DNA of 64,000 bases from Pirellulaceae bacterium. Its GTDB lineage: Bacteria > Planctomycetota > Planctomycetia > Pirellulales > Pirellulaceae. Location: assembly GCA_029243025.1 (NCBI GenBank), contig JAQWSU010000022.1:62001-126000 (forward strand). Reading direction: 5' to 3'. Below the pieces are notes generated by a model. That model made no database searches. It saw only the letters and a program-made list of their open reading frames with translations, and had not been told where the DNA came from. The translations under genes and the position numbers were made by a program. Positions 4,981 through 56,546 of the stretch are shown here, one piece after another. Each line of letters begins with the position of its first letter. Within the stretch, counting starts at the first letter, position 1.

Positions 4981-7900
4981 CTAGAATCCAGCGCCGAAGC
5001 CACCAATACCACCGACTCCGCCTGCGCCAGTACCGCCACCACCTTGATCGGTTGTTTGACCAGTGACGTAGTTGAACGTTTGAACATCACCCACGGTCGA
5101 AAACATCAACATACCGGGCGAGAAGCGTACATAGCGGCGATCAGCCGAGATCACAGCAGTGGCCCCCATCATATTGGCACCTTCCGGCAAAACGGTCAGC
5201 TGTGGTTGGAAGCCCACCGCCGGGTTGCGGATGAGTCCAGCCAGATTACCGTCACGGCGAGCACGAGCGATTGCAAGATTGGCAACCGCTTCGGAGCCAG
5301 AAACAGAACTTAGCTGTTGGGCCAAAATTCCTCGATTGACGACTGCTTGATTCTTTACGACGCTTGCAATTTGTTGTTCTGTGAGCGATTCTTTGCGTCT
5401 TCCGTCATTGACTTCGAAGACGACGATTGCATCTTTGTCGGACAGCGGAATCTGCTGGTGGATGTGTTTCTCATTCGAAGTGTGTCGATTCACGTAGATG
5501 TCGACCGTGATTTTTCCCGCAGTCACGTCGCCCCAGATGCGTCTTACCAACATGCGGTATTGGCCGGAAAAGCCTTCGGGGCAAACATAGGTTTCTGACA
5601 TCACGTCTTTCTTCTCTGTATTGGCAAATCCATCACCCAACAGGACGCCACCCGCAGGGGTGCGTTGATTGTAGAGTGAGCAGACTGAGCCAGACGGTTC
5701 TTCGACGAGAATATCGATATCGGCGTCACCGGTCCAAGTCACTCGAACCATGCAGTCGCGAACGATGGCACCACTAATCGCCGCTCGGAACTCTTTCGCC
5801 TTGTCAGGATCTGACTTCATTAGATCCTTGAGAGTTGCTTGAGCGAGGGTGACCGCTTTTTCTTGGATGTGGCGATGTTCCTTGGGCCAAGCGTGTCGCA
5901 GGATGTGGGTTACTGCCCAGCGGATTCCATCTGCGTCATTTAGTTTTTGTGCCAGTTGCAACCCTTGTACGTAGGGCTCCGGTCGAAGTGGCGCCAATTC
6001 AGCCACTTCCTGGTAAAGCTTTAGTGCTCGAGCATGAACTCCCAGTTGAGCCATGTAGGCAGCCGATATAAGTGCATCATTGGGATCAGTCGTCAGGTCG
6101 ATGCTCGAGGTCAACGCTCGCTCAACGTCCGCTTCGGGGGCGCCTTGAGCTTTCATGGCCAGCCCCAATGCTTCGTACATCCAGGGACGGACATAACCGG
6201 CCCGGAGCGCCGCTTCAATGATCGTTGTAACTTCTTCGAATTGTCGTGATGTCATTCGGTCTCGTAAGGTCCTCCGGATCGCTGCATCGTTAATCTGTTG
6301 CTCGTCCTGCTGGAAGAATTCGTCCCAAGCATCGGACTGACTCTGGCCGTCGCGAACTTCCAGTTCAATCGCTTGGACTCGGACCGTGTTGGGCTTGTTG
6401 AGGCGAGGGATGAACTTGCTGTCAGTGGTCTTGGTCGTGCCGAGCGTCAGCGTGTCCTCGACGTCGAAGAAGCCGCCACCCATGCCGCCCATGCCGCCAC
6501 CCATGCCGCCACCCATGCCACCCATCATGCCGCCACCCATGCCGCCACCCATCATGCCGCCACCCATGCCGCCACCCATGCCGCCCATCATGCCGCCACC
6601 CATGCCGCCCATCATGCCCATGCCGCCGCCCATCATCGATTGGATAGGCAGGACAAGATCAGCCACGGGATAGACTTTGGTGACCAAGCGAAGTTCGGCT
6701 TCGTCGGGGGTGGTGATTTGCAACACTTCGTCCTCAATGACATAAGTCAGGCCGAGGTCTTTCAAAATTAAGTTAAGAGCCGATTTGAGTTTGATTCCGC
6801 TCAGCTGTTTGGATATCGGAATGTCAGTGGTGAGAGCGGCCTCTTCCAAAGCTCGATTGTCGATCTCAATTTGAATACCGTGATACTGCTCCAGATAGGT
6901 CATCGCATCGGAGAGTGGTTCATCCAGGAAGTCGATCTTCGTGTCGGATTCCAGTGCATCCAGAATCCTTTGTTCGGCACTGCCCGTCTTGGCAAAATCG
7001 ATTTGTGCATACTTTTGACGCCGATTGGTCAAATCCTGCCAAAACTCGGGGTCCGGGTAAACGATCGGTTCGTTATCGGGAAACGGGACTTGTGAGCTGT
7101 CGATGTCATACATCGCGTCGAGGAATTTCTGGCGTTTCAACGCCACCAGCTGCATTTGCTGATCATAGGCGGTGGCCAAATGAGCCTTGACGACTGTCGC
7201 ATTCGTGGCGACAAGATTTGGATTCGTGTCGTAAGCATTGAGCGACGCTTCGACAGCCAGATCATACCGCCGTTCATCAAGTCGTGCGTTGAAGTGATCG
7301 ATGTAGGTTACGACGAGAGCATCGTCTCGCTTTGCCAAGTCAAGCAGACGTTGTCGCTCCATTGCCTGAGCTCGGTTCGCTCGGATAGTTTTGTCTCGTT
7401 CATCTTTTTCGATTTTCTGTTGGTTTGCTTGACGCAACGAAGTTTCGATGCGATCGAGCAATTGGGCTCGAATGTCCGCATCGAGATCAGGGGCCTGATA
7501 AATTGACTCACGAAGCGTTTTGAGACTGATGATGGCCGCATTCGGATCGCTGCGAACAATGCGACGGGCATCGGCTAATCCTTGGGTGACATCGCTTTTA
7601 ACGATCTGAGTTTTCAGCCGACGATCTTCAATTGCCTCATCTAGCAAACCACTCGGTTTTTCCACAGGTTGGAATTCACGCAGAAGCTCTTCATCGACTA
7701 CGGCTTCAACCACATCTTCCGGAACCAGACGAAGTTCTTCTTCTTGAACCATCAGCGTTTGACCTTGTTTGTCCGCCGCCCGCTTCAAAGTCGCGGCGAT
7801 CGGATTGGATGGGTCTCGCTTCAGTGCTTCTTGGGCCAGAAAGTTTGCACCGGCAACGTTTCCGGCTGCCAACGCCTGGGTACCAAGTTCGGAAAGCTGT

Positions 7901-44629: not shown

Positions 44630-47137
44630 CTAGCGTCTTTTTTGCCGTTGCCGACGACGTTCTGCAACACTCTCTGCTCCGTTACCGTTTTCTTGTACTC
44701 CCTTGGTCAATTTGGAAAGCAGCGACGGTTTGTTGGGGGATAATGCTTCGCCAGGTTGCTTGGGTTTGGGTTTTGGTAGCAGTTTACGTTCAGCCAACGC
44801 CCAGGCACTCGAAGTGATGAAATAAATGCAGAGACCTGCGGGGACTCGGAAGAACATGAAGGCAAATAAGAACATCATGTATTTCATCATCTTTTGCTGC
44901 ATGGCTTGCTGTTCGTCCGTGGGCGGCGGCGTAAACATTTTTTGATGCATGATCATGAAAAAGACAGAAATCAACGGCAGGATGTTGAGATAGGGGCCGA
45001 GCCAGCCGTCGGGTGCGGCCAGCATGGCCGGTAGATAGGGTTCCCAAAACCAGAGCTGATCGGGACCGGCCAAGTTAGAACACCACGAAATGCCTGGAAT
45101 TAGCGGCGCTTGGCGCAATTCGATGTCAACGCTCAGGGCGCGATAAAGGCCGATGAAAATCGGTAGCTGAAAGAAAACCGGCAGACAACCGGCCAAAGGG
45201 TTGTAGTTGTTTTTGCGGAACAGCTCGCGTTGAGCGGCTGCCTTTTTCTCCATGTCATCCTTGTATTTCTCTGTAATCGCCTTCATTTCTGGGGCGAGCA
45301 TCTGCATTTTTTGAGCATTCATGACCTGCTGACGCCCAATGGGGAACATGCAGCCGCGGACGAGAACGGTCAGCAGAATGATCGCGATGCCATAATTGCC
45401 AGTAATCGAATAGAAGAAATGCAACACGGCCATCAATGGTTTGGCAACCAACGGGAACCAACCGTAGGTAATGAAATCTTGGAGATTGTAAAGCGCTAGA
45501 ATGTCACGCTGCTTCGGGCCAGCAAAGATCAAGAAATCCTGTTTGAAGCTTTGCCCCGGCGCGATCTCTTTTTCTCCGCTGATGAGGCGAAAAGAAACGT
45601 CGGTGCGATTGGCTCTTAGCTCATCAACTTCGTCTGCAACTGGTAACGCCAGAATGTAATCGAATAAGTACTGTTCGCGTTCTGCCTGTGCCTCGGCCGA
45701 CTGCTCTTCGGCGTCTGGCGCTTCTGCAATCAGGGCTGAGGCAAAGTACTGAGCATCAACTCCTGCGTATTGGACATCCATGGGGATACGCTTGTCGTCT
45801 TTATCAACGTCTGAAATCCGCAGGTAAGACTCTTCCTTAATGGATAGTTCACCGGCTTTTTGCCCGTCCTGATATTCCTCATAGGGTTCCAGAATCTTTG
45901 GGTTCGTGAACAATTGGTGCCCATCACCAAATGTCTTCACGGCCACGTCACGCACCCCGGCACCGCCGAAGCTTTTTGGATGAGTCTTGTAGGTGTACCA
46001 CCAGCCTTCCAAAGGAAGACCTGTTGGGCCATCCAATTGGTAGCCAACCTCAGCGGGGGTGTCACCCAGGTTCTTGATCTCAAAGTCAAAATCTAGGTGA
46101 TAAAGACGGCCCGTTTCTTGCATCGCTTCGTCTTGTGGGTTGCGCTTGGCCAAGCGAAAGCGTTTAATGACGAGTAGATCACTCTTGAGTTTGAGTTCTG
46201 GGAAACGATCGGCCGCAACGCGATACCGAAATTCCACGCCGGGCAGCTTCCCGTCGGAAATAGGAGTCATCTCCCAATTCTCAACGAGCATCGCTTCAAT
46301 CCCTTCGTGTCCTTTTTGGCCGCGAAGCTGCGTCATCTTTTCTGTCTTGGGAGAGAGTGTCAGCCGATACGACAAGGGATGAGCGGGATTTAATTCCGAG
46401 GGATAGAGCGGTTCCGGTCGAATCAGCTCCAAGGGACGGTGGACCAACTCGGCCGAATAAGTATGTTCTGCATTTCCTCGCTCAACCGTGATCTGGATCG
46501 TCTCGCCTGGCTTGGTCGAGCTGAGTACCAGAGCAATCTGCTTCGACTCGCCGATCTCCTTGTCGTCGATTTTCGTGATGATGTCGCCCACCTGGAGGCC
46601 GACCGGATCACCGGCGGTGGCTGGAATCGCCGTGGCTGCGGGGGTGCCAGCACCAACCACATTAATGCGGCTCGTCTTGTCTTCTGATGAGAAGGCAAAG
46701 TAGCCCAGGTAGCCCGATTTATCCTCGAGATCGCGGTACCTGGGCTCGTTCAACGCAATGGATTCAATCGCGGCACCCTGATTCGTGAACCAAACCAGCA
46801 TTTTGTAAGGGCTCTCAGGGTCAAGAGAGCCGAGAGCTATTCGTTGCGGGGGCACCTTGGCGGCTTCAGCGACGCCTGCTTTACCGTCCAGGCCGGCCTC
46901 ATTGAAACCTTCTTCGCCTGAGATTTCAGCTTCGTTGGCCTCTGCCGCGTCCGCTTTTTCGCCAGCATTGGCGACGGCCTCTGCCGCCTCCTTACCCCCG
47001 TCAGCATCCACCTCATCGGCTGCTTGCTGGACAGCCTCATTTGGATCGGGAGGATTGAGCCACGCATTGAGCGCCTGAAAGCCGATCAGCACCGAGGCTG
47101 AAAGCATCAAAAAACTTATGAATTTCTTATTGTCCAC
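44630..47137 (-). CDS. yidC: Membrane protein insertase YidC with an extra PDZ-like segment
   Basis: The 835-residue protein has one N-terminal membrane segment, an Ala/Glu-rich acidic linker (about 33-92), a periplasmic domain with a PDZ-like insertion (about 165-232; PVGLQVGDIITKIDDKEIG), and the C-terminal insertase core (about 555-790) with GIAIILLTVLVRGCMFPIG, including the conserved substrate-groove arginine, and PVFFQLPIFIGLYRAL. A basic tail ends the protein. YidC inserts proteins into the inner membrane alone or with Sec. E. coli YidC has 548 residues, so this one is much longer, largely through the acidic linker and the PDZ-like segment. mnmE follows downstream. Confidence 0.93.
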   Translation of the reverse strand: MDNKKFISFLMLSASVLIGFQALNAWLNPPDPNEAVQQAADEVDADGGKEAAEAVANAGEKADAAEANEAEISGEEGFNEAGLDGKAGVAEAAKVPPQRIALGSLDPESPYKMLVWFTNQGAAIESIALNEPRYRDLEDKSGYLGYFAFSSEDKTSRINVVGAGTPAATAIPATAGDPVGLQVGDIITKIDDKEIGESKQIALVLSSTKPGETIQITVERGNAEHTYSAELVHRPLELIRPEPLYPSELNPAHPLSYRLTLSPKTEKMTQLRGQKGHEGIEAMLVENWEMTPISDGKLPGVEFRYRVAADRFPELKLKSDLLVIKRFRLAKRNPQDEAMQETGRLYHLDFDFEIKNLGDTPAEVGYQLDGPTGLPLEGWWYTYKTHPKSFGGAGVRDVAVKTFGDGHQLFTNPKILEPYEEYQDGQKAGELSIKEESYLRISDVDKDDKRIPMDVQYAGVDAQYFASALIAEAPDAEEQSAEAQAEREQYLFDYILALPVADEVDELRANRTDVSFRLISGEKEIAPGQSFKQDFLIFAGPKQRDILALYNLQDFITYGWFPLVAKPLMAVLHFFYSITGNYGIAIILLTVLVRGCMFPIGRQQVMNAQKMQMLAPEMKAITEKYKDDMEKKAAAQRELFRKNNYNPLAGCLPVFFQLPIFIGLYRALSVDIELRQAPLIPGISWCSNLAGPDQLWFWEPYLPAMLAAPDGWLGPYLNILPLISVFFMIMHQKMFTPPPTDEQQAMQQKMMKYMMFLFAFMFFRVPAGLCIYFITSSAWALAERKLLPKPKPKQPGEALSPNKPSLLSKLTKGVQENGNGAESVAERRRQRQKRR

Positions 47138-47353: not shown

Positions 47354-48103
47354 TCAGCGGCCCTCCTTCAGCCGATCACCCAAAAAGTTATCCAGTTCCG
47401 GTATCGCATAGATTTTTTCAATCGTTTTTTCAAGCATGTAAGGTACTCGACGGAAGGTAAGCTGACCTCCCTCCAATATGACATAGGAGGCTTGTGGGTT
47501 ACCATCCCGCGGTTGGCCGACGCTGCCCACATTGATCATCGCTTTTTGTTCGCCCAGGGTGAGCTGATCGCCGAAATCCGACGGTCGGTAGAATTTGTCG
47601 CCTTGAACAAACACGCCAGCAACGTGCGTGTGTCCTTGAAAGCAATATTGTTTGATCAGGCTGAAAATTCGTTGTAGTTTTCCCGGGTTGTGAACATCTT
47701 CCGGGAAGACATATTCCATCAGCGGGTTCCTGGCGGAACCATGGACAAACGTATGCTCGGCTTCGTGATGTTGACGAGGCAATTCGCAGAGAAAGGTCCA
47801 GCGGGCCAAATTTTCAGGGGTTTCGCCGCCGGCCTCCAAGGCCGACCGTGTCCAGAAAATGGCTCGCTCTGCACCGCTGCTAAACCCCTCGGGATCGAAA
47901 AGGGCAGCCTGATCGTGATTTCCCAGGATGCACATCTCCATCTGCATCACTTGGTCGATGCATTCACACGGGTTGGGACCGTAGCCAACGACGTCACCGA
48001 GGCAGTAGATCGAGCTGATGCCGGCGTCTTGGATGTCTTCCAGCACGGCGGTCAGGGCTTCGAGATTGCCGTGTATGTCGCTGATGATCGCCCGTTTTTG
48101 CAC
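47354..48103 (-). CDS. YfcE-type metallophosphoesterase
   Basis: The 249-residue protein has the calcineurin-like phosphoesterase motifs: [30 protein letters not shown], and GHTHVAG. This set binds two metal ions and hydrolyses phosphodiesters or phosphomonoesters. Residues such as [10 protein letters not shown] belong to the same family. Its substrate is unknown. A close paralogue is encoded 262 bp upstream on the same strand, so the pair likely arose by tandem duplication. The ATG at 48103 starts the first motif directly. Confidence 0.85.
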
Positions 48104-48364: not shown

Positions 48365-49126
48365 TCAGCGACCCTCGCGAAGTCGGTCCCCGAGCATGTT
48401 GTCGAGGTCGGACTCTCGATAGATTTTTGCAATCGTTTCTTCTACGGGATACTCGATTCGGCGAAATGTGATTGATTCATCCGTCAGGATCGCGTAACAG
48501 GCACGCGGATCACCATCTCGTGGTTGTCCGACACTCCCAACGTTCACCATCATTTTATCGCCCGTCAGACGATACTCGAAGTCGAACTCTTCAGGACTCA
48601 AAAAATCGCCGCTGATGTTGAACACGCCTGGAATATGGGTGTGTCCTTGGAAGCAATACAGCTGAATGCGTTCGAACAGGATTTGCATTTTTCGCTGATT
48701 ATAGACGTCTTCAGGGAACACGTATTCGTTCGTGGGTTCGCGGGGTGACCCGTGCACGAACAATCGGAGTCCCTCGTCGCGTGTACGGGGTAATTCGCCC
48801 AGGAAATCCCAGCGGCCGTTGACGCGGCTAGGCGAGTCACCGGCTTCCAACTGCTCTCGGGTCCAATAGACCGCCCGCAAGGCGACGGGATTGAAGCCAT
48901 CCGGATCGAACATGGCCGCCTGATCATGGTTTCCGAGGATGCAAACCTGGAATTTCATGGCGTGGTCGAGGCATTCTCTTGGGTTTGGCCCATAGCCGAT
49001 CATATCGCCCAGGCAGTAGATCTCGGTGATGCCTTGCATCGATATGTCGTCAAGGACAGCGCGCAACGCCTCAAGGTTGCTGTGCACATCACTGACGAGC
49101 GCAAGCTTCACTTTCACGGACCTCAT
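48365..49126 (-). CDS. YfcE-type metallophosphoesterase, paralogue
   Basis: The 253-residue protein is closely related to the one at 47354-48103: [51 protein letters not shown] and GHTHIPG. The order and spacing of the motifs are the same in both proteins, and a shared tail, LDNXLGDRLXEGR (X marks differing residues), ends both. The ATG at 49126 is used; an in-frame extension up to 49222 is unlike the paralogue, and a GTG two codons before LALVSD is possible. The active-site set is complete, so both copies look functional. Substrate unknown. Confidence 0.82.
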
Positions 49127-49451
49127 AGAACCCAGGGAAACAAAATTGGCATCCAGAGGCTTGAACGCCAGCGGATGCCTATTCCATCTCCGCAGTCTAG
49201 GTTTCTGTGAACCTAAGGTCAAGAGTCGTAAGCTCTTGCTGGCTGCGAATCAAGCCGCTGGCCAAGCTCACACGGCCCCAATTTGCCTCCAGATCGCAGC
49301 GATCTTCCGCGGCGGCGAATCGCCTGCCTGCCGAAATTCGCGGGTGGCTTCTGCCGCAACTCACGCATCCGTCTGCACTTCCATCATGATGTTGTGCAGG
49401 TTTCCGCAGTGGCGACGGGAGGCAGCCCAGGAATTCCCGTTTTCAGCCCAA

Positions 49452-53219: not shown

Positions 53220-56200
53220 ATGCTCAGCATGGACACGCAGCACTTGCTACGACTTTACCGCACCATGACCCTGGCGCGGAGAATCGACCAGGTCGAACAA
53301 GAAATCACTAGTCGTGGAGAGGCTTTCTTCCAAATCTCTGGAAGCGGGCACGAGGGCACGGCAGTTTTTGCGGATTTCTTGACACGCGACGACTGGTTGC
53401 ATTGCCATTATCGTTCACGAGCCTTGTTGCTTGCTCGTGGAATTCCCGCGAAGCGATTCTTTGACAACTTGTTGTGTAAGAAAGACTCGACTTCTCAGGG
53501 CCGACGAATGAATGCATTCTTCAGCTCGTCTGAATTGCGCATTCTCAGCATGGTGACACCTGTGGGGAATCATGCGTTGCAATCGGTGGGCGTCGCAGAA
53601 GCTGTTCGCGATGAAGCATCACGGCCGATTGTTTTCTGCGGTTTGGGGGATGGAACTGCGCAACAAGGCGAGGTTTTGGAGGCACTTGGCGAGGCCAAGC
53701 GTCGCGAATTGCCATTGCTGTTCGTGATTGAAAACAACCATTGGGCCATTTCCACGCCGACGTCGGGTGGCACCTTCTTTGATTACGCCCGTGCAGCGGG
53801 CGATCAATTCATGGGGATTCCGATCCATTATGTGGATGGGCGGGATGTGGTGGCCAGCTACGATACTTGTGGCCCCATCGTGCAGTCGGTCCGCGAAGAA
53901 CGGAAGCCGGCGATTATCGTCGCGGATGTCGAGCGGTTGACCAGTCACACGAGTGCCGACGATCACTCGCTTTATCGTTCGGCGGATGACTTGGAACAAG
54001 CAGTGTCGGATGGTGATCCGATCAAGCGGGCGGAAGCCCATTTAATGACGCGTGGTGTGACTGTGACAGAGCTGGAGTCGATTCGGGCGGATGTGAATCG
54101 TGAAGTCGAGCAGGTAGAAAAAGAGGCTTTCTTAGGTGAGGAACCCACTACTGCCCCCGATGCGAAGCGGCATTTGTCGGTCGAGCTCACTCACTCATCC
54201 CGCGAATTTCGCGGCAGCGGCGAGCCCACCGTTACGATGCGCGAGGCGATTCGTGACGTCTTGAGTCATCGCTTACGGAGGGATTCCCGTGTCGTACTTT
54301 TTGGCGAGGATATCGAGGATCCTAAAGGCGACGTGTTTGGGGTAACTCGCGGCCTGAGCACTTTGTATCCGGAGCGTGTTCTCAACTCGCCCCTCAGTGA
54401 ATCAACGGTACTCGGCGTTTCGATTGGACGAGCCTTAGCAGGGGAACGGCCCGTTGCCTTTGTGCAGTTCGCCGACTTTTTGCCGCTCGCCCACAATCAG
54501 ATCGCGGATGAGATGGCAACCATGTATTGGCGCACTGCCGGCGACTGGGAATCACCGGTGATCGTGATGGCCGCTTGCGGAGCCTATCGACCCGGTTTGG
54601 GTCCCTATCATGCTCAAACGGCCGAAGCAATCATGGCGCATATCCCGGGGTTGGATGTGTTCATGCCGTCGACGGCGGCAGATGCAGCCGGCCTGTTGAA
54701 CGCCGCGTTTGAGTCGGGGCGTCCAACCATTTTTCTTTATCCCAAAGCGGGTCTAAATGATGCCAACGTCGCCACATCGGAAGATGTGGCCGACCAGTTC
54801 GTGCCGATTGGTCCAGCCCGTAAGGTGCGTGGTGGTCGTGACATCACTTTTGTTGCTTGGGGCAATACGGTGGGTGTCTGCGAACAGGTGGCGGAGGCCT
54901 TAGATCGAGTCGGTGCGGAGTCCGATATTGTTGACTTGCGCAGTCTCTCGCCGTGGGACCAACGGAGTGTGTTGGCATCGGCGGAGCGCACGGCTCGCTT
55001 GGTCGTCGTTCACGAGGATAATCATACCTGTGGTATTGGGGCGGAGGTGCTGGCGACGGTTGCTGAGAAGGCCCGCGTGCCTGTGGCTTGCCGCCGTGTG
55101 GCCCGACCCGACACGCATATCCCTTGCCACTTTGGCAATCAGATTGAGCTTTTACCGTCTTTCGAAAATGTGCTGCAGGTTGCCGCTGATCTATTGGATC
55201 TCGATCTGCAATGGATTGAAACGCGACAACAGCTCGATGACGTGATGCTGATCGAAGCGATCGGGTCAGGTCCCTCCGATGACCGAGTGGAAGTCGTGCA
55301 ATGGCATGTCAAAGAGGGTGACACGGTCCGTCGAGGAGACGCATTGGTTGCTCTCGAGGCATCCAAGTCGGTGTTCGATATGACTTCGACAATCGACGGA
55401 ACGATTGATCGCCTGCTCGCCGATCAGGGCGATGAGGTGCCTGTGGGCGAACCCCTGCTGAAGTTGTGTTGCGATCCGGCCTCGACTCGGCCGCAGCCCA
55501 AGCACACGGAAGCCGATCGCACCCCGGTACTCAAGCCAAAGCCGAAATCGGGTCGACTGATTCTGCCCAGATCGGAAGAAGAGCCGCGACAATTTGATGT
55601 CGGTATTTCGAATATTGCCACGGTCGAGGGCAGTCGCTTGGTTAGCAATCGCGAATTGCTTGCCGATCAGCGCCAACGAACCAGCGACGACGTCTTGCGC
55701 CGTACGGGCATCGAAAATCGCCGTTGGGTAAACGGTGGCGAGGATGCGATCAGCATGGCAGTCAGTGCTTGTCATCAGGCCTTAGAGCAGGAAAACTTGA
55801 TTCTTGATGACCTCGACATGTTGGTCTGTAGCACGACCAGTCCAACTTCCGTCACACCTTCGATGGCGTGTCGTGTGCTGAATCGACTGGCTGCTGGTAA
55901 GGGTGAGACGATGATGCAGGCATTCGATATCAACGCCGCCTGCTCTGGCTATTTGTATGCTCTGCAGGCAGGCTTCGATTATTTGCAAAGCCGCCCGCAT
56001 GGACGCGTCATGGTGGTGACGACCGAGGTACTATCGCCCTTGCTTGATCCTGCCGATTTCAATACGGCAATCCTGTTCGGTGACGCGTCGTCGGCGACCG
56101 TCCTTTACGGTGAGGCGCATTTCGAAAATGCCCGAGCACGTCTGCATCGTCCCGAATTGTCTGCGAAAGGAGATGTCGGAGGCGCCTTGTCGGTACCTCT

Positions 56201-56546
56201 GCTGCACGATGGTTTCATTCAGATGGAAGGTCGTAAGGTCTTTAGCGAAGCAGTCCGAACGATGATTGCCAGCCTGAATCGAGCTTGTCAGCAAAACGGG
56301 TTGAATATTGATCAATTAGATCTGATCGTGCCGCATCAGGCCAATCAACGAATCTTGGATGCGATTCAGAATCGTATTCAACCTCGGGTCTACAGCAACA
56401 TCCGACACCACGGGAATACTTCCTCTTCCAGTATTCCGCTTTGCCTGTCAGATATCCTGCCTCAGTCAAAGAGCTCAAGTCGATTTGGACTCTGTGCCTT
56501 TGGTGGCGGTTTTACTTTTGGGGCAAGTATTCTCGAAACCAACTAA
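53220..56546 (+). CDS. Fused 2-oxoacid dehydrogenase E1-alpha/E1-beta, lipoyl domain and KAS III ketosynthase
   Basis: A 1108-residue polypeptide with four domains. E1-alpha (about 1-310) has HCHYRSRALLLARG and the thiamine diphosphate motif GDG (143-145) to Asn (172/173). E1-beta (about 335-660) has VVLFGEDIEDPKGDVFG and NSPLSEST. A lipoyl domain (about 675-750) has acceptor Lys716 in ALEASKSVFDM. A KAS III domain (about 790-1108) has the full triad: Cys908 in NAACSG, His1039 in VPHQAN and Asn1066 in HHGNTSSSS. Known families: E1 decarboxylates 2-oxoacids and reductively acylates lipoyl; KAS III condenses acyl groups with malonyl-ACP. Inferred: the acyl group passes to the ketosynthase of the same protein. 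No E2 transacylase core or E3 is present. ATG at 53220 is used for numbering; one at 53229 is equally possible. Confidence 0.92.
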   Translation: MLSMDTQHLLRLYRTMTLARRIDQVEQEITSRGEAFFQISGSGHEGTAVFADFLTRDDWLHCHYRSRALLLARGIPAKRFFDNLLCKKDSTSQGRRMNAFFSSSELRILSMVTPVGNHALQSVGVAEAVRDEASRPIVFCGLGDGTAQQGEVLEALGEAKRRELPLLFVIENNHWAISTPTSGGTFFDYARAAGDQFMGIPIHYVDGRDVVASYDTCGPIVQSVREERKPAIIVADVERLTSHTSADDHSLYRSADDLEQAVSDGDPIKRAEAHLMTRGVTVTELESIRADVNREVEQVEKEAFLGEEPTTAPDAKRHLSVELTHSSREFRGSGEPTVTMREAIRDVLSHRLRRDSRVVLFGEDIEDPKGDVFGVTRGLSTLYPERVLNSPLSESTVLGVSIGRALAGERPVAFVQFADFLPLAHNQIADEMATMYWRTAGDWESPVIVMAACGAYRPGLGPYHAQTAEAIMAHIPGLDVFMPSTAADAAGLLNAAFESGRPTIFLYPKAGLNDANVATSEDVADQFVPIGPARKVRGGRDITFVAWGNTVGVCEQVAEALDRVGAESDIVDLRSLSPWDQRSVLASAERTARLVVVHEDNHTCGIGAEVLATVAEKARVPVACRRVARPDTHIPCHFGNQIELLPSFENVLQVAADLLDLDLQWIETRQQLDDVMLIEAIGSGPSDDRVEVVQWHVKEGDTVRRGDALVALEASKSVFDMTSTIDGTIDRLLADQGDEVPVGEPLLKLCCDPASTRPQPKHTEADRTPVLKPKPKSGRLILPRSEEEPRQFDVGISNIATVEGSRLVSNRELLADQRQRTSDDVLRRTGIENRRWVNGGEDAISMAVSACHQALEQENLILDDLDMLVCSTTSPTSVTPSMACRVLNRLAAGKGETMMQAFDINAACSGYLYALQAGFDYLQSRPHGRVMVVTTEVLSPLLDPADFNTAILFGDASSATVLYGEAHFENARARLHRPELSAKGDVGGALSVPLLHDGFIQMEGRKVFSEAVRTMIASLNRACQQNGLNIDQLDLIVPHQANQRILDAIQNRIQPRVYSNIRHHGNTSSSSIPLCLSDILPQSKSSSRFGLCAFGGGFTFGASILETN

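Follow-up and report, generated by a model that had tools for sequence, protein, structure and literature searches.

In the textbook account, the acyl group formed by a 2-oxoacid dehydrogenase leaves the complex as acyl-coenzyme A (acyl-CoA), and the KAS III enzyme FabH takes it from the CoA pool. The supply of branched-chain starters in Bacillus and Streptomyces follows this scheme, with the branched-chain 2-oxoacid dehydrogenase (BCKDH) complex and FabH acting as separate enzymes between which the acyl group moves as free acyl-CoA. Here we describe a gene that unites these activities on one chain, at 53220–56546 (plus strand) of a 64,000-nucleotide stretch of DNA from a Pirellulaceae bacterium (GenBank contig JAQWSU010000022.1, positions 62,001–126,000; the window). 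Its 1108-residue product carries E1-alpha, E1-beta, a lipoyl domain, and a KAS III domain. Conversion of a 2-oxoacid to an acyl group that KAS III then condenses is shared with the Bacillus and Streptomyces systems, but the free acyl-CoA that links the enzymes there would be bypassed in the cycle proposed below. We consider it probable that the protein is a 2-oxoacid dehydrogenase without E2, in which KAS III has replaced the E2 core and receives the acyl group from the chain's own lipoyl arm, so that a chain would be started without free acyl-CoA.

The 1108-codon frame runs uninterrupted through E1-alpha, E1-beta, the lipoyl domain, a Pro/Ala-rich linker, and KAS III. This single-protein arrangement had been described in an earlier sequence-only reading of the window, and is confirmed by the open frame, by a Pfam search that finds all four parts in that order, and by a confident AlphaFold2 model of the full chain built from the family alignment (mean predicted local distance difference test score, pLDDT, of 84). 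The thiamine diphosphate (ThDP)-binding E1-alpha (residues 13–303; 53256–54128) matches E1_dh (PF00676, E = 9e-46), has invariant columns across the family, and aligns to Thermus 1um9_A. E1-beta (residues 338–634; 54231–55121) comprises Transket_pyr (PF02779, residues 338–511, E = 1e-27) and Transketolase_C (PF02780, residues 532–634, E = 1e-26), and the modelled part superposes on the Thermus 2-oxo acid dehydrogenase (1um9_B) with a Z score of 42 and a root-mean-square deviation (rmsd) of 1.8 Å. The lipoyl domain (residues 690–749; 55287–55466) matches Biotin_lipoyl (PF00364, E = 3e-13). After the linker (residues 752–793; 55473–55598), the KAS III domain (residues 794–1106; 55599–56537) matches ACP_syn_III (PF08545, residues 902–965, E = 6e-17) and ACP_syn_III_C (PF08541, residues 1023–1106, E = 2e-19); its model has a thiolase-type fold and superposes on Escherichia coli FabH (Z = 39, rmsd 2.0 Å).

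Comparison with 2-oxoacid dehydrogenase complexes of the branched-chain and pyruvate types reveals common E1-alpha and E1-beta parts with a ThDP motif and active-site Glu and His residues, a lipoyl domain with its target lysine, and an E3 encoded in the genome. In contrast to those complexes, neither an E2 acyltransferase core (PF00198) nor a peripheral-subunit-binding domain was detected in the 1108-residue chain (Pfam, E ≤ 0.01), and KAS III occupies the C-terminal seat. E1-alpha is closest to the Thermus and human BCKDH enzymes, i.e. to those of the branched-chain type, and the best matches of E1-beta are to Pyrobaculum, Thermus, and Geobacillus E1 proteins of mixed annotation. With FabH the C-terminal part shares the fold, the Cys-His-Asn triad, and a putative acyl carrier protein (ACP) docking arginine (Arg249, E. 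coli numbering). It differs in being joined to E1 and a lipoyl domain and in the residues discussed below. Among NCBIfam models it scores 251.6 with the broad PRK09352.1 (cut-off 249) and 222 with TIGR00747 fabH (cut-off 292); no dedicated NCBIfam model for the fusion is among the best 25 matches.

The same order of domains is present in 31 full-length homologues from Planctomycetota, Spirochaetota, Verrucomicrobiota, Lentisphaerota, Methylococcaceae, and Marinobacter, which are 45–87% identical to the window protein; the closest (L035), from another assembly, is of equal length and 87% identical along the whole chain. Within the same class, 14 of 297 genomes have a long open frame (1129–1362 residues) matching a lipoyl-KAS query at E < 1e-100, and in four further genomes the copy is shorter, truncated, or broken. 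When 85,000 species genomes were scanned, the fusion was returned from Spirochaetales, Verrucomicrobia, Lentisphaeraceae, Methylococcaceae, and Marinobacter halodurans as well. A phylum-wide search with E1-beta and the lipoyl domain returned mostly ordinary-looking E1 and E2 genes, except in two planctomycete families, one with the fusion (f83) and one with a fusion to E2 (f66). The catalytic residues of all four parts are invariant among the 31 proteins, down to 45% identity; these include Gly143, Gly145, Asn173, His243, Glu394, and His464 of E1, as well as Lys716, Cys908, His1039, and Asn1066, which the sequence-only reading had correctly named. Because the homologues keep both the domain order and the catalytic residues, the fusion is not an assembly artefact, and a sequencing error joining two genes, or a chance fusion absent from relatives, is rejected by intact copies in other assemblies and several phyla. 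In one genome (L144) a 203-residue E1-alpha-like fragment (6213–6824) lies directly upstream of the intact fusion gene; one match in that genome has a TAG inside.

In the lipoyl domain (family consensus AELEADKAVFEL), the target lysine Lys716 (codon 55365–55367) and Glu713 are each present in 31/31 sequences. The context of the lysine is EADKAVFE in the consensus and EASKSVFD in the window copy, with the lysine and the glutamate at −3 kept. Lys716 is predicted to be lipoylated; in a Bacillus lipoyl domain in which the flanking Asp and Ala were mutated, only the correct lysine was lipoylated (reviewed in PMC6270654). The segment between E1-beta and the lipoyl domain is exactly 27 residues long in 31/31 proteins. 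Ala, Arg, Pro, and Ser abound in the linker between the lipoyl domain and KAS III, which varies from 37 to 73 residues in the family and is modelled with low confidence; it is predicted to be a flexible arm.

Residues of the KAS III domain were numbered by E. coli FabH (K-12 genome) and compared between 47 fused domains (45 distinct at 95%) and 49 free-standing KAS III proteins, nearly all of the latter chosen as nearest relatives. In FabH the adenine of CoA is stacked between Trp32 and Arg151 (PMC4606726). Trp32 is present in 48/49 free-standing proteins and 0/47 fused domains, where it is replaced by Asp (39), Glu (7), or Ala (1), and Arg151 is likewise present in 48/49 versus 0/47, with Phe (20), Pro (14), Leu (9), Lys (2), or Tyr (2) in its place. 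In the window protein the two sites are Asp824 (55689–55691) and Phe947 (56058–56060). Lys214 is mostly replaced, and the adjoining loop at E. coli residues 196–197 is missing in most fused members. The Cys112, His244, and Asn274 triad (Cys908, 55941–55943; His1039, 56334–56336; and Asn1066, 56415–56417, in the window protein) and Arg249 are retained in 47/47. We read this combination as a ketosynthase that would still condense with an ACP-bound extender, but whose primer would no longer come from CoA in the usual way.

The nature of the acyl group may be reflected at FabH position 87, where the bulk of the residue determines the size of the acyl chain: E. coli FabH, with Phe, prefers acetyl-CoA, and the Mycobacterium tuberculosis enzyme, with Thr, prefers long chains (PMC3734052). 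This residue is Thr, Ser, or Cys in 47/47 fusions (Thr879, 55854–55856, in the window protein), and its small size in every fusion suggests that the acyl group taken by the fused KAS III is bulky and exceeds acetyl in size. Together with the branched-chain affinity of E1-alpha, this makes acetyl less likely than a branched-chain or other bulky acyl group.

Support for the placement of KAS III comes from a sister family. In planctomycetes of family f66, a single chain (L147:2727–6089, minus strand; L148:2848–6120, plus strand; L154:3307–6834, plus strand) runs from E1-alpha and E1-beta through a lipoyl domain but ends in an E2 catalytic domain (PF00198) where the window protein has KAS III. The E1-beta parts of these chains are 48–50% (about 49%) identical to those of the KAS-fused proteins, compared with ~26–36% for ordinary planctomycete E1 proteins, and an E1-alpha-beta tree places the E2-fused group as sister to the KAS-fused group (support 100/99). 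Since a sister E1-lipoyl module bears the E2 core at the same C-terminal place, KAS III stands in the seat of E2; as judged from their sequences, the two kinds differ in the C-terminal acyl-accepting enzyme. The active-site motif of the f66 E2 domains is HRPFNG, the usual form being HRxxDG.

The same functional parts also occur in a two-gene form, in which an E1-alpha-beta gene is directly followed by a gene for a lipoyl-KAS III protein (L023–L027, L120, L121, L135–L137, L074, and L084; f2, another family of the same order, and some Spirochaetales). As in the fusion, lipoyl domain and KAS III share one chain and Trp32 is replaced (by Tyr in 7/7: L023–L027, L074, and L084), with Arg151 kept in 4/7; in contrast to the fusion, the genes are separate and E1 is of another lineage. 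A single clade of the fused and two-gene E1-alpha-beta sequences is rejected by the approximately unbiased (AU) test (p-AU 0.00013), whereas a common clade for E1-beta alone is not (p-AU 0.13). Kinship of the fused and two-gene KAS III parts is compatible with the data (p-AU 0.54; Shimodaira–Hasegawa-like approximate likelihood ratio support, SH-aLRT, of 90 in a quick tree). As E1 cannot be grouped across the two forms, the coupling of E1 to lipoyl-KAS III would therefore either have been assembled twice or have had its E1 exchanged. On balance we lean towards a new multienzyme class, in which a KAS III has become specialised to a lipoyl donor with no CoA intermediate, and which evolved repeatedly, drawing on different E1 lineages.

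In the cycle that we propose, the ThDP-dependent E1 would decarboxylate a 2-oxoacid, probably leaving an acyl group larger than acetyl, and would reductively acylate the lipoyl group on Lys716 of its own chain. The lipoyl arm, swinging on the flexible linker, would hand the acyl group to Cys908 of KAS III, which would condense it with malonyl-ACP. The resulting beta-ketoacyl-ACP would be the earliest intermediate on the way to a fatty-acid-like chain, and E3 (dihydrolipoamide dehydrogenase) would reoxidise the dihydrolipoyl arm in trans. The 8.35 Mb host genome encodes E3, LipA, and members of the lipoate-ligase/LipB/biotin-ligase family, so the parts needed in trans are all present, in agreement with the expectation of the sequence-only reading that E3 would be supplied from elsewhere. 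That reading had also proposed the handover from lipoyl arm to own ketosynthase without an E2 core. This part of it gains comparative, and thus partial, support: direct transfer is favoured because the CoA clamp is lost, because E2 sits in the same seat in the sister family, and because the coupling recurs in a two-gene form in other lineages.

Several observations weigh against direct transfer. The lipoyl motif of the window protein is SKS rather than DKA, albeit with Lys and Glu−3 retained, and no peripheral-subunit-binding domain that would recruit E3 was detected. The AlphaFold2 model is of a monomer. A lost adenine clamp is compatible with every donor other than CoA, e.g. acyl-ACP, and not just with acyl-lipoyl. 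In planctomycetes the gene is a loner: it has no conserved pathway neighbours, and none of its neighbours is conserved outside near relatives.

A much less likely alternative is that KAS III acts as an acyltransferase. It would then take the acyl group off the lipoyl arm and load it on ACP or another thiol with no decarboxylative condensation, so that the product would be an acyl-ACP rather than a beta-ketoacyl-ACP. Natural-product pathways are known to include KAS III relatives whose sole activity is acyl transfer, and KAS III occupies the exact place of the E2 acyltransferase in the sister clade. However, dedicated acyltransferase variants of KAS III often alter the Asn, while the condensing Cys-His-Asn triad is intact in all 47 fused domains. 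A short-chain dehydrogenase/reductase (SDR)-type enzyme encoded directly downstream in several spirochaetes, its gene overlapping the stop codon of the fusion in L061, is likewise suggestive of the reduction of a beta-keto product. We therefore regard transfer without condensation as unlikely.

Slightly less probable still is that the two halves exchange no acyl group: E1 and the lipoyl domain would serve another E2 in trans, KAS III would be fed by acyl-ACP or acyl-CoA, and the fusion would set only stoichiometry or location. The same genome does hold two separate E2 proteins as well as E3, and an acyl-ACP donor is also compatible with the lost clamp. Against this proposal, a flexible linker carries the lipoyl domain between the two halves, in the two-gene form it is carried by the KAS III protein and not by E1, and the corresponding seat is taken by E2 in the sister clade. 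That the fusion is degenerate, non-functional, or artefactually assembled is very improbable. In one metagenome assembly (L044, 6884–10353, and L009, a contig of the same length) a break within E1-beta leaves the gene as two overlapping frames, and this may be genuine or an error of assembly, but 31 intact full-length homologues from several phyla have invariant catalytic residues and the structure model is confident.

Besides the two E2 proteins, the host genome encodes another E1-alpha-beta gene and, on contig C18, a separate FabH-type KAS III, making the fusion an accessory KAS III and not the only one. This free-standing FabH (L001, G000:C18) keeps Trp32 and has Glu at the position of Arg151, the sole such case in the 49 controls. 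A conserved biosynthetic cluster around the fusion gene in planctomycetes was looked for and none was found. Among the spirochaete neighbours, aconitase, NeuB, seryl-tRNA synthetase, and OmpA are uninformative and only the SDR reductase is suggestive; the remaining flanking genes compared have nothing in common.

A lipid cluster lies ~7 kb from the fusion (63238 to the end of the window and on to ~C22:131128; also L117:13239–19001 and L155:1238–7128) and adjoins the fusion in L045. It encodes FabI-like and FabA/FabZ-like proteins, two flavin adenine dinucleotide (FAD)-dependent amine-oxidase-type oxidoreductases, an ACP, and a KAS II. The first FAD protein of the cluster occurs in 27/27 genomes tested from the family of the window genome, whether or not they carry the fusion (the others being 68–78% identical), and is missing from fusion-bearing f16, f83, and one f17 genome. 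A link between fusion and cluster is thus unsupported by co-occurrence, tested with the first FAD protein only, and we do not assign the fusion to a cluster that is general to the family regardless of it. The gene set recalls proposed ladderane gene clusters, whose radical SAM genes are not among the proteins scanned; the main texts of the ladderane papers checked for a similar protein do not contain the terms lipoyl or pyruvate dehydrogenase/dehydrogenase E1. Elsewhere in the window, judged by eye, are a YidC/Oxa1-type insertase (44630–47137, minus strand), the periplasmic part of which has an apparent PDZ-like stretch (VGDIITKIDDKEIG), and tandem paralogous metallophosphoesterase-like proteins (47354–48103 and 48365–49222, minus strand).

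A literature search combining lipoyl, KAS III, and E1 found no description of E1-lipoyl-KAS III proteins, although it covered openly licensed papers only and is weak evidence of absence. A conserved, multi-phylum protein thus appears to short-circuit the CoA step by a handover from lipoyl arm to ketosynthase. If direct transfer is correct, the protein would exemplify acyl transfer from a lipoyl group to a ketosynthase and would join 2-oxoacid decarboxylation by a new enzymatic route to chain initiation, which would be uncoupled from the CoA pool; in kind, the protein is a variant of the 2-oxoacid dehydrogenases. It would provide a compact one-protein starter module, open to in vitro testing, and it shows that an acyl-accepting enzyme other than E2 can take over the place of E2 in a dehydrogenase.

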